Source of the DNA: Vulcanisaeta sp. JCM 14467
GTDB taxonomy: Archaea > Thermoproteota > Thermoprotei > Thermoproteales > Thermocladiaceae
Length of the DNA: 64,000 bases
Direction: 5' to 3'
Assembly (NCBI RefSeq): GCF_001316245.1
Contig: NZ_BBDM01000008.1
Span: 1-64,000 of the forward strand
Part shown: positions 36,794 through 61,046 of the stretch, one piece after another
Layout of the letters: each line of letters opens with the position of its first letter
Position numbering within the stretch: position 1 is the stretch's first letter
Made by a program: the position numbers and the translations under genes
The notes under the pieces: generated by a model
What the model was told of the DNA's origin: nothing
Databases searched by the model: none
Seen by the model: only the letters and a program-made list of their open reading frames with translations

Positions 36794-36990
36794 CTAAAAC
36801 ACGGTGTATGATGGTCCAGCGAGCCTAGCGGTGAAGCTGACAGGCACGTCAACGCTCATTTAGATCTGGATTAAATTAACCTGCAGGTACCAATGACCTG
36901 AACCCATGAAGCCCAGCACAATAATGCCAAATCCCTCAATACAATCCTCTAAATGAGACCATAACTCACGAATCGACAAAGCCTAAGCTA
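36794..36990 (-). pseudogene. Remnant of a minus-strand gene (C-terminal part?)
   Basis: One minus-strand frame reads SHLEDCIEGFGIIVLG, GSGHWYLQVNLIQI, an in-frame TAA, then SVDVPVSFTARLAGPSYTVF and a stop at 36794. It looks like the beta-rich end of a protein that no longer has a start. It lies just left of the PaREP2-like copy and may be the distal half of a gene whose other half is at 39047-39304. The family is unknown. Confidence 0.3.
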
Positions 36991-37435
36991 AGCCTTGACG
37001 TTTGAGACATTCCCCATTCACGGTTATTTTCTTGACCAACCAAGCCCTATCGCTAACCTTGATGGGCTGTATCATTTCGTTGATTATTGTTAGTGGGTCG
37101 TAGTCACGGCTAAGCACAATGCACCGCCCCTCTTTAGGCATTCCCTCGCCGCCCTTATTTCGGCCGGTTCATCATCAGCAAGGATGAAGTCTAAGCCCAA
37201 CTCCCTGAGCCACTTAATCCTCGACTCGGAGATGGCCCTGTGCTTTGGCTTCGAGTAGTCAATTACGAAGATAATGCTCGGCTTTAGGTGGCCGTAGTCA
37301 ATGGCAAGCCTAACATTGGCGAGGAAGTCCCTCGCTCGTGATTGCATACGTCACGTGGTACCTCGGCTTGAGTAAGTCATTGCTCAATGCCCCAACCTGC
37401 CTAACAACCTTAGCATCCTTATTAAGCACATCCAT
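36983..37435 (-). CDS. PaREP2-like N-terminal module, inverted relative to its body (frameshifted)
   Basis: Minus-strand frames read MDVLNKDAKVVRQVGAL, then SRARDFLANVRLAIDYGHLK, VIDYSKPKHRAISESRIKWL and, after another break near 37090, VLSRDYDPLTIINEMIQ to a stop at 36983. The central part is clearly similar to plus-strand sequence at 58940-59090 (FLVNVRLAIDY, VDYSKPEHRAIAESRVEWL), which there leads straight into the body of the same element. Here it points away from the body at 37502. Breaks near 37345 and 37090. Function unknown. Confidence 0.5.
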
Positions 37436-37442
37436 GTGTTTT

Positions 37443-39046
37443 TGATTGGTCTTAGGGCACGGGTAGTGCCTTATTAATTCGGTTGGGATTTCCGCATTGG
37501 TATGTCTGGTGCTCTGGGTTGGCTTGATAAATTCAGCGTGGATTCGCTGAAATCCAACCACTTCTGCACTGGTGTTAAACGCGGTAGGGAGTATCGATGT
37601 GGCGGTGAGGCTGATGAGGGTGCGAAGAGCAAGGCCGTTGAGTTGCTTGTTGAGGCCGTTGGGCGAATGCGACGCTGGAGGGTTTGGGACGTGTGGTGGG
37701 TTGAGGAGGTAATGGATGAGTGGTTGGAGAAGCGCGATAGGTTGGAGGTGCAATTGCGAGGTAAGTACGTTGATGAGGTCGTCAACGCAATCACGGGACT
37801 CGTTAACGAATTCATCAATTACAATGAGGAGTTCCTAAATTACTGGCATGATGATGGCGGTGAAGCCAAGAAGTTAGTTGATGATCTGCTGAATGGTAGG
37901 GCCGAGGCCATTATCTGGGAGAGCGAGAAGGGCGTAAGCGTGTATAGAGAGTACATAACGTTGGAGGCGCATAGGACGAGAAATGGCATAGTGGTTCAGC
38001 TGGTGCTTAATGACCTTGAGGGCATAACCATTGAGGCGCCGGACATATTTAAGAAAGTGATGAGTGAGAGGGAGTATAGGAAGTTCGTTAATGACGTGCT
38101 AGAGGCGCTGAAAGGCGGCTTTGAGGAGGCTGATGGAACTATTGAGGGAGGTAAGGCTGCCATGGGCACGACGCAGATATGGCAAGTCGTTGTTTGGGCG
38201 TTGCTTTATCCAGGTGAGAATTACATGCATATAACGACGTTAATGTCAATGAGGGTGGCGTGACGGTGGCTTATTTCTTGAGGTCCAGCCATGACCAGCT
38301 TAAGGGCAAAATTCTTAGTGATGCCGAGAAACTTAGCGAGAAAGAGCTCCTAGCCTTCATGTTTACTGCAATACTTGGTGATGGGTGGGCGGGTATTGTG
38401 AAGCCTATAATTAATGGCCGTGCCTACGATGAGGCTGTGGTTAAAATCACGATGTCAGATGAGGAGTTTAAGGGGTGGGAGCCGTTGTTGGAGAGGTTGA
38501 TGAGTATAGGTTTTAACTGGAGGCCGGAACCAGTCAGTGATGGTGTGGTTGACGTGAGATTCTACGGAAGCAACGCCATTGACCTGGCCAGGTCGATGAT
38601 CAGCGTCTTACCGCCAATTTTGCGCGACATCATGGACGCGTTATCATTCGAGAAGTGGAACAACCTAAGGAGGATTGCAGAGATGGAGATGAAGTTCAGG
38701 AGGGGTGAGATGCAGGTAAACGTGGCCGGTTACGGATTCACAGTAAAGGTTCATGATAGTACTATTGTGTTGGAGCATAGGGCTAGGGATGGTGTTGAGA
38801 CTGATGAAGTTATTAATGCGCTGAAAGCCAATTACGGCGATGAGTTTCACACCTACGTTAATAAGGGCGGTAAATACCTGATCATCGTAATACCCATGTA
38901 CGTGTTTGAAAGGTATGAAGACATCAAGGCGCAGGTCGTTAAAGTGCTCTGTGAGAAGCTCGAGAAGGTGAAAGACGAGAAAAAGAAACAAACCATAATC
39001 AAGCACCTGACGAGACTGACGGCACCCACAGAGGGGGCGGCCGCGG
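37443..39046 (+). mobile_element. PaREP2-like element, copy 1 body
   Basis: Similarity to the copy at 58609-60696 begins near 37443 and ends at the shared terminus CCGCGG at 39041-39046. The left end is unclear because the N-terminal module just upstream is inverted. The flanks carry minus-strand gene debris, which suggests insertion into a gene followed by rearrangement. Confidence 0.5.
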
Positions 39047-39081
39047 CTTATTTGAATAACTATGAGGGAGATGGTGCTTAG
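37502..39081 (+). CDS. PaREP2-like element protein, copy 1 (frameshifted)
   Basis: About 520 residues in two frames, joined near 38235 (NDVNVNEGGVTVAYFLRSS). It matches the 533-residue protein at 59157-60758 along its whole length: CTGVKRGREYRCGGEAD, MGTTQIWQVVVWALLYPG, then LLAFMFTAILGDGWAG, RFYGSNAIDLARSMI and the end TEGAAAA. The ILGDG segment resembles a LAGLIDADG-type motif. I believe the family is PaREP2b of Pyrobaculum and relatives; that name is from memory and not verified. The shared part ends at 39046 (CCGCGG), and the frame runs on into flanking DNA. Confidence 0.6.
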
Positions 39082-42386: not shown

Positions 42387-42514
42387 TGTTAAGGCATGTG
42401 AATTGGATTGGTTATAAAGTTTTGGTACTTATTACCCGCAATATCGGCTACATAGTCACTGGCATGAGCTCAAAAATCCAATGCGATTTTGAGGCATTTG
42501 TAAGTATTTATAGC

Positions 42515-43186
42515 TTAATTTACCGCGGCCGCCCCCTCTGTGGGTGCCAAGCGCCTTAAGATCCTGACTATGTCTTGTCTCTTTTTCTCATCCTTTGTCT
42601 TCCCATATTTTCGGCAGAGTACTTGCGTAACCTTAACCCTTAAGTCATTTTGCGACTCGATCACGTACGCTGGTATTACGATGACTTCATATTCATCACT
42701 CTCGTGAGTATTGATTTGGCTGATGAACTCATCGCCATAGATACTCTTTAATCTCCTAAGAACCTCCTTAACCTCTTCATTACTTTTAGCCTTATGCCTT
42801 AAATCAACTGTATATTTCGTAAAACGTACGGAGAAATTTATGCCGGCCACGATTACTTGTGACTCACCTCTTCTATTTAGTTCTAATGCCGCAATCTCTT
42901 TTATCGTTTTCCACTTCTCAAGGTTCATAACGTCCAACAGACCCTGCAGCACCGGCGGTAAGGTATTGAGAATCATTCTAGCTAATTCAACGGCGTAGGA
43001 ACTATAGAAACATATGTAAGTCACGCTGCCGGATTCTCTAGGGTTCCACCTAATCCCTAGCTTATTAAGTAATTGCTCCCATTCTCTGCGTTTGCGATTT
43101 GACATCGCAATTTTTATTTCAGGGGTGATGGAACCATGGGTATCTCTTATCCGAATTGTGATAAACAGGACAACGGATAAGCTCAA
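42515..43186 (-). CDS. PaREP2-like element protein, copy 2, C-terminal fragment
   Basis: 223 residues matching only the last third of the 533-residue protein: SITPEIKIAMSNRKRREWEQLL, LEKWKTIKEIAALE, VTQVLCRKYGKTKDEKKRQD and the end APTEGAAA. The N-terminal two thirds, including the ILGDG motif, are missing. The shared terminus is at 42523-42528 (minus strand CCGCGG). It is probably dead. Confidence 0.55.
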   Translation of the reverse strand: MSLSVVLFITIRIRDTHGSITPEIKIAMSNRKRREWEQLLNKLGIRWNPRESGSVTYICFYSSYAVELARMILNTLPPVLQGLLDVMNLEKWKTIKEIAALELNRRGESQVIVAGINFSVRFTKYTVDLRHKAKSNEEVKEVLRRLKSIYGDEFISQINTHESDEYEVIVIPAYVIESQNDLRVKVTQVLCRKYGKTKDEKKRQDIVRILRRLAPTEGAAAVN

Positions 43187-43188
43187 GT
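42523..43188 (-). mobile_element. PaREP2-like element, copy 2, truncated
   Basis: Only the right part of the element is left. Its right end coincides base for base with the other two copies (GGGGGCGGCCGCGG), beyond which the three sequences differ. It lies between the alpha/beta hydrolase and the surface-protein gene at 43252. Confidence 0.5.
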
Positions 43189-43224
43189 ATGAGTTACCTA
43201 CGGGGTGGGAGAGTTAACCTAATA

Positions 43225-57284: not shown

Positions 57285-57327
57285 GTGCGAGGCCAGGTTA
57301 TGTAATGCTTAGGAACACTGGTGAGGT

Positions 57328-58105
57328 TTACTCCAGGTAATCGTAATCGCTACCACCCACGTATATATTATGCAACACCCTGTAAAGCGCATCAAGCCCT
57401 CACCCGTCTTAGCACTTATTGGTATTGGCCTTGGTATGGTCCCAATGGCCGTTAGCACGTCCGATAATCTAACACTTAAGTCCGCCTCTAACTTATTCGC
57501 CTGGCTAGACATTAATGCCTCCCTGAGTAGGTCCGTCTCCTCACCCCACTCAAGTATTTGATCAACCACGGACCTGTCGAGTAGATCAACCTTATTAAGC
57601 ACGTTAACCTGAGGCATATTAAACCTAACTGCGTTGAGAGGGCTAGGAGCATTGATGATACGTAACCACTCGGTGTCTGGGCCTGGGTTGCATCTATCAC
57701 GAAGACCACGGCAGACCTATCCATGCTCAACCTATTAATTAATACCGAACCAACACTCCTAAAGGCGAATAACTCCATCTGGCCAGGCGTGTCTATTAAG
57801 ACGTAGTTAGCCCCGATATCCATTATTTGACTCTTAATCTCCTGGGCCCTGACCGCAAGCATGTCTATGGCGGCTATTATCGAGCCGTTCGGGCCAAGCT
57901 TATACTTCCTCATTAGCTCCCTGGCCGAGACCACATCCCTAATGTCTATGTCCGGTATGTACGGCACGTACTCTACGGCCGGGTCCAGGTTGACTATGGC
58001 CACGTCATACTGATTATCCTCGAGCCAATCAGCGAATGAACTAACCAACGTAGTCTTCCCAGACCCAGCCGTGCCCACTATAAATACTGTGAACATCCAA
58101 TGCAT
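57328..58105 (-). CDS. GPN-loop GTPase (frameshifted)
   Basis: P-loop GTPase. Walker A GTAGSGKTTL, the diagnostic GPN loop YKLGPNGSIIA, switch region DTPGQMELFAF and the base-recognition motif NKVDLLDR. Breaks near 57630 and 57385; after the second, the true end reads LDALYRVLHNIYVGGSDYDYLE with stop at 57328. About 257 residues, as in archaeal GPN proteins. Eukaryotic relatives help RNA polymerase assembly; the archaeal role is not settled. ATG 58096 is an alternative start. Confidence 0.85.
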
Positions 58106-58117
58106 GTACTAAGGACC

Positions 58118-58601
58118 TCAATAAAAAAACTTCCGAACTGCGTTAGACACCCATGTACAGCGTAGCCGTAACAGCCCTCGCGGCAGCTCCCCAAGCAGCA
58201 TGTACCTAATACTATTCCTCAAACCCACGTAGCCCGCCACCACCGTCACTAATGACCCACTAATCAACGAACCAATTAACGTGCCCACACCATAGAATAG
58301 GTATATAGGCTGACAGCGTCCTCCGATCCTCAGCATTATCATAGACAAAGCCTATGTAGGCAATGTTAGATGCTGAGTTTGTGAACCCAGCCACGGTATT
58401 CGCGAGGTAAATCACATAAACATTATTGGCGAGAGCATATGACAGCGGAAAAGTAACCAGCAGGAACCTCCCCAGGAACATGATCAACTTTCTATTCCTA
58501 TCGAACCACCTACCCACAAACCTCTGCAGGGCTAGAGTCGACACACCACTAATCACGTTAACAATGGCCAACTGCTCAACATTCATGTTAAGCAGATACA
58601 C
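58118..58601 (-). pseudogene. MFS transporter, C-terminal half (split by element, also frameshifted)
   Basis: Five to six membrane helices with the MFS loop VGRWFDRNRKLIMFLGR. A break near 58300 separates SAYIYLFYGVGTLIGSLISGS and the end NAVRKFFY at 58118. The first codons AQVYLLNMNVEQL continue the N-terminal half at 60697-61046 when the element in between is removed. Function of the transporter is unknown. Confidence 0.75.
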
Positions 58602-58608
58602 CTGAGCC
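58602..58608 (+). repeat. Left copy of 7-base direct repeat CTGAGCC
   Basis: CTGAGCC at 58602-58608 recurs at 60697-60703, directly after the conserved element terminus CCGCGG. Both lie in the split MFS gene, as expected of a target-site duplication. Confidence 0.5.
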
Positions 58609-60696
58609 AATGGGAATAGTCTTTAAAACCTGAGTGTGTTTAAATATTGGTTATTTATTAATGACTATGCTTGTTGCGTTAATCTTCGTAGCTACTGAGT
58701 AAAGTAATTAAACCGGTTAGAATTTCGCGCAATCGATTTTACGCTTAGTCATTTACTGCCTATGGCGATTAACGGTTAAATCAGCGAACAGCCCTTAAAA
58801 ACAACTTATTTTATTTACTAATTACCGTGGACCTAGGCTTAGGAGGGCTTACTCGAGGTGTGTCTTTGAGGTTGCCTGTGGCGTACTTCCTGACTTGGTT
58901 AACGGCATTTATGACTATCTCATGGTTAATTTGGCGAGTATCACGTATGGTCTCAGGGGCTCGAGGGCTTTTCTCGTGAATGTTAGGTTGGCTATTGATT
59001 ATGACTACCTAAGGCCGAGCGTTACCTTCGTGGTTGATTACTCAAAACCAGAGCATAGAGCAATTGCCGAGTCTAGGGTTGAGTGGCTCGGGGATTTTAG
59101 GTCTGGGTCACGTTGTGTAGTGCCTTATTAATCTAGTTGAGGATTCAGCAATTGGTATGTATAGTGCTCTGGGTGAGCCTAGTGAGCTCGACATAGGACT
59201 ATTGAGGAGGAATAGGTTCTGCATGGGCGTGAAGAGGGGTAAGAAGTACGTCTGTGGTGGTGAGGCTGATGAAAACGCCGTAAATAAGGCCATCGAGTTG
59301 TTGAGCGAAGCAATCAATCGAATACAACGCTGGTGTGTTTGGGATTCTTGGTGGGTTGAGGAATGGATGAACGAGTGGTTAATAACAAGGGATAGGCTGG
59401 AAATGCAATTACGGGGTAAGTACAGCGACAAGATCACAACCAGTCTTTTAGGGATGATCGATAGGTTCATAGGCTACAGTGAGGAATTCATGAATTACTG
59501 GCATGTGGTTGGTTACGAGGTTAGGGAGCTAATTAATGCCTTAGCGAGAGGTAGAACCGTGGTCGTGATTAGGGGTGAGAACGTATCAGGGGTGAGTGTA
59601 TATGGAAGGCACACAACACTGGAGGTGAGTAAAGCGAGTGGAGACAGTATAACGGTTAAGTTAGTACTTAAGGGGCTCGGTGGCATAGTTATCATGGTGC
59701 CTGACGTGTTTAAGGAAATAATGGACAAGAAGAAGTATAGGAGGTTCATTAAGAAAGTGCTTAGGGCGTTGAGGAGAGGCTTAGAGGAGACCGATGGAGA
59801 CGTACAGAAAGGCTTGTCGGCAATGGGGACGACGCAGATATGGCAAGTTCTCGCATGGTCGTTACTTTACCCTGGTAGGGTACATACGTATGTGAGCTCC
59901 ATCAATATCAATGAGGGCGATGTAACTATTACGTGGTTCATGCGGTCTAACCACAAGTCAATCAGGGGCAGAATCCACAATGATATTGGGAAGCTCAGCA
60001 AGGAAGAGGTTTTGGCATTCACATTCACAGCGATACTCGGCGATGGTAGCGCGTTTATCAGGAAGGATCGCGGCTATGATGTGACTGTGCTTGAAATTAC
60101 AATGTTGGATGAGAAGTTTAAAGCGTGGGGGTCGTCGTTGTTAGCGAAGTTGAGAGAAATGGGTTTTAGGAGCGGTAAACCGATAACAAGGGGCAATAAG
60201 GTTGAAGTGAGGTTTTACGGCAGTAATGCCATTAATTTGGCAAGGGCTATGATTGATGTCTCGCCATCAATCCTTAAGGACATCCTTGACGCTTTAGGCT
60301 TTGAGAAGTGGGAAAGAATTAAGCGAATTGCCGAGATGGAGGTAAGATGGCGAAAGGGCGAGATGCAGGTGAGTGTGTTAGGTTACAGATGCACAGTGGA
60401 TGTTCAAAAAGGCACTGTTAGGTTGGCTCTCAAGGCTAAGGATGAGGATGAGGCAAAGAGGATTATCGAGATGTTGAGAGCTGTGTATGATGATGTTCAT
60501 GCCCGCATTAATCGTAGCCATGGTAAATGTGTTGTTAGATTACCCATGAAGTTCATCGAAGAACATATTGAGGTTAGGATACAGGTTGTGAAGGTACTGT
60601 GCCAAAAATACCGTAAAGTTAAGGATGAGGTGAAGAGAAAAATAATTGCTATGCACTTGTTGAAGTTAGCAACACCCACAAAGGGGGCAGCCGCGG
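58609..60696 (+). mobile_element. PaREP2-like element, copy 3, inside an MFS gene
   Basis: A 2.1-kb insertion. The right end, CCGCGG at 60691-60696, is the point where all three copies stop matching. The left end at 58609 is inferred from the 7-base repeat. The first 220 bases have no gene but contain a possible promoter (TTATTTTATTTAC, 58806-58818). The rest encodes one large protein. Confidence 0.6.
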
Positions 60697-60758
60697 CTGA
60701 GCCTCTCCATTATCAGGGCCCACGCGAAGGAGTTTGCACCGCCGACGCCGGCTATTAG
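58827..60758 (+). CDS. PaREP2-like element protein, copy 3
   Basis: The main frame from 59157 is 533 residues and intact. A similar N-terminal module is readable upstream from GTG 58827 with breaks near 58855 and 59095 (AYSRCVFEVACGVLPDLVNG, then FLVNVRLAIDYDYLRP). Motifs: CMGVKRGKKYVCGGEAD, MGTTQIWQVLAWSLLYPG, VLAFTFTAILGDGSAFI (LAGLIDADG-like, near residue 290), RFYGSNAINLARAMI and the end PTKGAAAA. The shared part ends at 60696; the last 20 residues come from the target gene. Probably PaREP2b, from memory. Confidence 0.65.
60697..60703 (+). repeat. Right copy of 7-base direct repeat CTGAGCC
   Basis: Immediately follows the element terminus CCGCGG and matches 58602-58608. Confidence 0.5.
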
Positions 60759-61046
60759 TATGTACGTTATTAGGTAGGCCAGTGGATTTCCATAGGCGAT
60801 GAATGCCATTATAAGCCACAGAACCGCCAGCAATAACGTCGATAACTTAAGCAGTAACTCAATACGCCTAATCCTCCTCAATGGTAATTGAACGACACCA
60901 CTGAAGAATGATGTGGCGGACGAGACCAGGCTGATGCCGATACTGGGTACTCCTATTACCGCGGCTAGGAAGCTCATGAATGGCGATACAAGTCCATTGG
61001 CAAGGTTTTGGAGGAGTATGTAATTTTTCAATTTCCTATGATGCAT
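60697..61046 (-). pseudogene. MFS transporter, N-terminal half
   Basis: Starts MHHRKLKNYILLQNLANGLV at 61046 and has about four membrane helices, ending FAWALIMERL at the element border. The half has no stop of its own; the frame reads into the element's terminus. Together with 58118-58601 it would form a normal MFS protein of about 280 or more residues. Confidence 0.75.

Follow-up and report, generated by a model that had tools for sequence, protein, structure and literature searches.

A 64,000-nucleotide stretch of the draft genome of Vulcanisaeta sp. JCM 14467 (contig NZ_BBDM01000008.1, positions 1 to 64,000), hereafter the window, contains an MFS-type transporter gene on the minus strand that is divided into two pieces by inserted DNA. 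Within the transporter and antisense to it, about 195 bp of unrelated DNA are followed by an open reading frame termed ORF A and then by a longer one, ORF B (Table 1). A comparison of 21 regions of the same genome places the repeated part of the insertion at 58815–60697. In the window copy the start frame of ORF A is lost, and ORF B has no stop codon of its own.

Table 1. Features of the interrupted transporter locus and further copies of the ORF B family in the window (window positions).
Feature	Position	Strand	Remarks
MFS transporter, C-terminal piece	58260..58619	-	reading frame breaks near 58260; similarity edge at 58618-58619 in 9/9 relatives
Left CTGAGCC	58602..58608		on transporter codons PLAQ
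Inserted DNA, ~195 bp	58620..58814		neither transporter nor found in other copies; repeat coverage begins at 58815
ORF A fragment	58829..59131	+	N-terminal ~90 residues (of ~166) encoded by a conserved host gene; ends VVPY-stop (59129-59131)
Motif GTAGTGCCTTATTAATC	59117..59133	+	left edge of the B unit; common to many copies
ORF B, 533 codons	59157..60758	+	family similarity to 60698; last ~20 codons are antisense transporter
Asp213 codon	59793..59795	+	no variation among 19 aligned members; first of the two expected active-site acids
Asp296 (GDG) codon	60042..60044	+	at least 90% conserved in 19 members; expected second active-site acid
Conserved end of B coding part, CACCCACAAAGGGGGCAGCCGCGGC	60673..60697	+	located by matrix scan
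MFS transporter, N-terminal piece	60691..61046	-	start at 61046, end ...ALIMERLSRG; orthologues in 10/11 other genus genomes
Right CTGAGCC	60697..60703		on transporter codons RLS; touches the element end
Third window copy	36983..39047	+	B in two frames, inverted A fragment in front; only left flank found in relatives
Second window copy, truncated B	42431..43207	-	777-bp insertion between divergent genes; borders resolved

Pfam searches and orthology assign both flanks of the element to a single gene, which is uninterrupted in the relatives examined, and this bears out the proposal of the earlier note that an element splits an MFS transporter. The C-terminal piece matches MFS_1 with an E-value of 6.9e-7 (28.9 bits, below the cut-off of 33.4), and the N-terminal piece does so with an E-value of 0.0098. 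A sequence search with the N-terminal piece, which as a query matched orthologues down to 66% identity, identified the gene in 10 of the 11 other genomes of the genus; six of these orthologues are open from end to end, with 376–390 codons (L033, L034, L036, L037, L038 and L040), two have frame breaks (L032 and L039), one is cut by a contig end (L041) and one has an internal deletion (L035). The inner edge of similarity in the N-terminal piece lies at 60691–60703 in nine relatives. In all nine relatives measured, the two window pieces are 295–313 bp apart; the tenth, L035 of genome G004, was excluded because of its own internal deletion in that region. Between ALIMERL and AQVYLLN the orthologues carry about 100 codons (SRG...SFAWP) that the window copy lacks. 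Removal of the element and one heptamer, which had been thought to rejoin the gene, therefore leaves it incomplete, and the one-base frame mismatch earlier ascribed to a sequence error needs no such error. The missing ~300 bp were not found elsewhere in the same genome, in a search that had no control of its own. A GTPase gene adjoins the transporter both in the window and in relatives, and the two pieces stand in the correct order and orientation. Insertion of an element into the transporter with loss of a segment of the target is very probable, and the comparison with orthologues shows the interruption itself, the missing segment of about 300 bp and the native place of the two heptamers.

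Two side observations concern the same neighborhood. In G004 (C1:219077-222436), the MFS gene lacks an internal stretch in frame, leaving an ORF of 316 codons; this is a second, independent loss within the transporter gene. In the window, the conserved GTPase gene beside the transporter (57309–58105) is split into overlapping ORFs and is open in relatives, and base-level indel errors in the draft genome are likely from this broken gene.

The heptamer CTGAGCC is present at both junctions, with its right copy abutting the conserved terminus of the family as had been observed, and it is the longest string that the junctions have in common. In orthologues, the corresponding transporter codons lie about 300 bp apart. 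Similarity to the transporter extends past the left heptamer by 10–11 bp in all nine relatives (to 58619 in eight and to 58618 in one); on the right side, it covers the heptamer in seven (to 60691 or 60697) and stops at the outer edge of the heptamer, 60703, in the other two. GGCTCAG, the heptamer as read along the transporter, is present at the left site in five of ten relatives and at the right site in none of the ten, where the R-L-S codons are mostly spelt otherwise, synonymously. For random pairs of positions 2,094 bp apart, a common 7-mer occurs within 15, 20 or 30 bp of both points in 3.9, 7.2 and 16.8% of pairs, respectively. The earlier note had read the repeat as a possible 7-base target duplication; as judged from the sequence, it is instead a matter of two native places in the transporter and of chance, because each copy occupies native transporter codons at its own site, the junction lacks about 300 bp and so does not fit the uninterrupted orthologue, and no duplication of 7 bp is found at the five other copies with resolved borders. 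The last two observations are the outcomes that the note had named as refuting its reading. As this case illustrates, a short repeat at two junctions must be compared with an intact orthologue.

The stretch of ~195 bp preceding ORF A has as its best match elsewhere in the 12 genus genomes a run of 28 bases (on C9 of the same genome, E = 6.5e-5), the other matches having E-values of at least 0.0165. ORF A matches a conserved host gene over 58829–59095 (79%). This gene is present in full length and in one copy each in 10 of the 11 other genus genomes, with 68–81% identity to a 162-residue query, and two of these genomes (G007 and G011) have no match to B; ORF A was therefore rejected as a transposon gene. 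The genome of JCM 14467 contains 16 matches to A, among which the copy at C15:42986, with an ATG start and a C-terminal sequence similar to that of relatives, looks native, and the copies on C1, C2 and C6 have a different upstream stretch in common and a GTG start. Weak fragments of A, with 43–53% identity, lie directly upstream of a B copy in G001, G005 and G006. On the plain reading, A is a fragment of a host gene that was joined to B in an ancestor and is now a decaying passenger. A structural model of host protein A (pLDDT 70.3) gave no Foldseek match at E ≤ 0.001; the best match was FEN1 (2.3e-3), with GEN1 and T5 exonuclease also ranking high, which is a weak hint.

ORF B belongs to a dispersed family with 61 matches in its own genome, many of them fragments, and with matches in 8 of the 11 other genomes of the genus; a profile of 19 members found matches in 20 of 45 genomes of the order, its own included. 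Relatives occur in Vulcanisaeta distributa JCM 11216, JCM 11217 and a Vulcanisaeta MAG, and weak matches in a Thermoproteaceae MAG and Pyrobaculum oguniense. Stops and frame shifts disrupt many of the copies, and several others are long open frames. A matrix scan of 21 regions of the own genome for the conserved end of B gave 19 matches, compared with one in shuffled sequence. This terminus, CACCCACARAGGGGGCGGCCGCGG, was rejected as a recombination end, as the insert at 42431–43207 extends about 90 bp further; a few of 16 B copies continue past it with a related tail (PEDxTQ and similar), and the distance from it to the stop codon differs from copy to copy. What it marks is where the conserved coding part ends, rather than a proven boundary.

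Sequences other than A precede other B copies. At the left ends of L076 (10740–11200, reading ...VRYACGDEVGEREITLSRVMRYVVKLL), L078, L081, L089 and L092, another gene fragment lies before B in the opposite orientation, perhaps a second captured host gene, and a GC-rich leader upstream of B in L123, L075 and L085 has GGTGGGTGGTATGGCCCC in common. The otherwise different loci L085:7549 (+) and L075:2930 (-) have ...AAGGGGGCGGTCGCGGCGTTTTAAC in common near the B terminus. In a 301-bp stretch (L076:4907-5207), the start region of A and the terminus of B are kept and most of B is absent, so that it resembles an internally deleted derivative.

For 12 other copies, the flanks served as queries against six or seven relatives, and borders were regarded as resolved where both flanks lie close together in relatives, as at L073, L077, L081, L129 and 42431–43207 in the window. 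The remaining seven (L092, window 36983, L074, L087, L126, L128 and L130), for which, apart from the copy itself or an occupied orthologue, no more than one flank found a match, stand outside the duplication count. A 7-bp duplication was found at none of the five resolved copies, and four of them show no target duplication. The fifth, L073 (C4), lies at a site that is uninterrupted in all six relatives and has an imperfect direct repeat of 27–29 bp, with 26 of 29 alignment columns equal and a 27-bp stretch common to the relatives and both flanks. At 42431–43207, the flanks are 2–17 bp apart in five of seven relatives and 47 bp apart in L190, L191 matching on the left only; a few base pairs are replaced, with the ~90 bp of extra DNA beyond the terminus, and nothing is duplicated. 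L129 (G001:1893344-1895013) measures 1,670 bp where G004 and G006 have 12 bp, so that about 12 bp are replaced without duplication; its site is occupied in G002 and G003, and 215 bp that include a short remnant are left in G005. The flanks of L077 are separated by 68 bp in the single relative seen. Those of L081 are 50–57 bp apart in four of five relatives, the fifth having 403 bp between them, and on its right side L081 carries about 107 bp of additional DNA; at both loci, 50–70 bp of intergenic DNA are replaced or diverged and no duplication is seen. The longest strings common to the borders at 42431–43207, L129, L077 and L081 are 5–6 bases. These insertions are old, and decay may hide original features of their borders. 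The resolved sites are unrelated to one another: one is within the transporter, one separates divergent genes, and others follow a small zinc-finger-like ORF or adjoin tRNA genes. The copies at L077 (5901–6000) and L081 (5760–5900) directly adjoin tRNA genes, and a partial tRNA-like piece occurs within the extra DNA on the right of L081.

Pfam, NCBIfam and PHROGs contain nothing that matches the window ORF B significantly, and 18 of the 19 aligned members give no LAGLIDADG match in Pfam at E ≤ 0.01. The remaining member, L060, passes the whole-protein Pfam cut-offs for LAGLIDADG_3 and LAGLIDADG_WhiA, with no single stretch at E ≤ 0.01. One search against PDB sequences yielded nine weak matches, the best being a designed protein (E = 1.9e-4), and another yielded none. 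An AlphaFold model of B (mean pLDDT 88.1, pTM 0.76) was compared with the PDB using Foldseek, and the top match was I-Tsp061I (E = 3.3e-5, probability 1.00), followed by I-AabMI, I-PanMI, I-OnuI, E-DreI, WhiA and I-DmoI (identities taken from the best 50 of 753 matches at E ≤ 10, of which 53 were at E ≤ 0.001). Whole-query TM-scores are low (0.11–0.23) and the rmsd is 8–21 Å, which indicates that the match is local, to a core that forms part of the protein. In a viral structure library, named LAGLIDADG proteins are among the best matches of B, beside others. From their place at helix ends in the model, Asp213 and Asp296 would be the active-site acids; acidic residues are kept across members with 26–56% identity, in a 19-member alignment that includes some fragments and a masked stretch in L049. 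The model thus makes it highly plausible that B has a LAGLIDADG homing-endonuclease fold. The suggestion of real transposition or homing in the earlier note holds insofar as the family has moved, since the MFS gene that the element splits is continuous in the relatives examined, and a homing-endonuclease fold is predicted; its homing part is weakened in that the resolved sites share no evident target.

The reading that we favor, with modest confidence, is that the locus holds a degraded copy of this dispersed gene family, with its predicted LAGLIDADG fold, that was inserted through error-prone repair of a break. An ancestor of the window copy would have acquired an upstream fragment of host gene A; some 195 bp of unrelated DNA together with A and B would then have entered the transporter in antisense orientation, and the ~300 bp of the transporter would have been lost, presumably in the same single event. 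The breaks may have been made by B or have arisen otherwise, and error-prone joining at them would capture element DNA and leave filler, a deletion or a duplication, with no target duplication of fixed length. A nuclease-fold gene, no recognized transposase, no constant ends and irregular borders fit with such an insertion. The irregular resolved borders, the 295–313-bp gap, the LAGLIDADG matches in Foldseek, the two conserved aspartates, L060 and the nature of A as a host fragment count for capture at breaks; counting against it are the decayed state of the window copy, the local nature of the Foldseek match, the 18 members without a Pfam LAGLIDADG assignment, the fact that later decay of old insertions can mimic irregular borders, and the repeat at L073, which would also fit a transposition enzyme. 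We regard this mechanism as about evenly balanced between true and false. The broader proposal is of a mobile family without a transposase: a LAGLIDADG nuclease gene housed in no intron or intein would reach unrelated sites by capture at breaks, with fragments of host genes in front. This proposal is tentative and rather doubtful.

The most serious competitor, which we nevertheless consider unlikely, separates the events: the element would have entered in a regular manner, perhaps duplicating ~30 bp of its target, and 300 bp of the transporter would afterwards have been deleted along with one of the borders. The imperfect repeat at L073, set against six empty relatives, and the independent deletion in G004, according to which the MFS gene tolerates such losses, speak for this course, which has to contend with the four other resolved sites without a duplication and with an element in which Pfam, NCBIfam and PHROGs recognize no transposase. 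Passive spread is less probable still; in that case B, by now a degraded repeat, would be relocated through ordinary host recombination and gene conversion, and its nuclease fold would have ceased to matter. The stops and frame shifts in many copies and the A fragments carried along and decaying beside B would suit this view, yet several copies remain long open frames and the acidic residues are conserved even between distant members. An assembly that wrongly joins element and transporter is improbable: the draft is in 25 contigs with a listed completeness of 81.58% and neighboring conserved ORFs have frame breaks, but the two pieces agree with relatives in order, orientation and the adjoining GTPase gene, and a misjoin would also have to remove the intervening 300 bp from the assembly altogether (as far as the search without its own control goes). 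Homing of an endonuclease gene into a site that it recognizes, to which the predicted fold lends itself, is very improbable given that the resolved sites are unrelated and that entry into an orthologous site would not delete 300 bp. Lowest of all in probability stands classical transposition with a 7-bp target duplication, for which the heptamer is exact on both sides; its copies occupy native codons ~300 bp apart with a 7–17% expectation by chance, none of the five other resolved copies has such a duplication and the intact orthologue does not fit.

Compared with known LAGLIDADG homing endonucleases (I-Tsp061I, I-DmoI and others), B has a predicted double core and two acidic residues at helix ends; in contrast to them, it is a 515-residue protein with extra domains and many copies per genome, known here from sequence and model, and its window copy has no surrounding intron or intein and no common target was seen. 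An archaeal intron-encoded endonuclease is unlikely at this locus, given the antisense orientation of the ORF and the loss of about 100 host codons. Free-standing homing endonuclease genes are nuclease-type ORFs outside an intron or intein, as is B, which differs in its dispersal as tens of fragments and in the host-gene fragments that precede it. Like insertion sequences, the B family interrupts a gene and is multi-copy, but it has no recognized transposase, and its resolved copies have no fixed duplication or ends; the ends of copies were compared by eye. One Vulcanisaeta paper reportedly deals with 16S rRNA introns in a LAGLIDADG context (PMC4496867). No description of the B family was found in the literature on Vulcanisaeta mobile elements, PaRep2 and free-standing LAGLIDADG proteins, a search that mostly covered journals outside subscription.

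The repeat ORF families found in hyperthermophilic archaea are mostly little more than names, and a family that Pfam and NCBIfam leave unnamed is now given a predicted homing-endonuclease fold, several measured borders and a clear case of gene interruption. Should the nuclease be what drives the spread, enzymes of the homing type would be able to disperse through a genome without an intron, an intein or a fixed target, carrying pieces of host genes with them. PaRep2b (PF07775) of Pyrobaculum resembles B in being multi-copy, about 510 residues long and found in Thermoproteales, and PaREP2b elements are called putative transposons in a passage of the P. oguniense paper (PMC3558965). A comparison of B with the PaRep2b profile by hhalign was weak (probability 38.5, over 93 C-terminal columns only). 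Membership of B in PaRep2b was rejected, PF07775 matching neither the window ORF nor any of the 12 genus genomes, while 10 of the 45 genomes of the order do match. The PaRep2b matches in G026, G028, G031 and G035 often lie within very long open frames, some of more than 4,000 codons.
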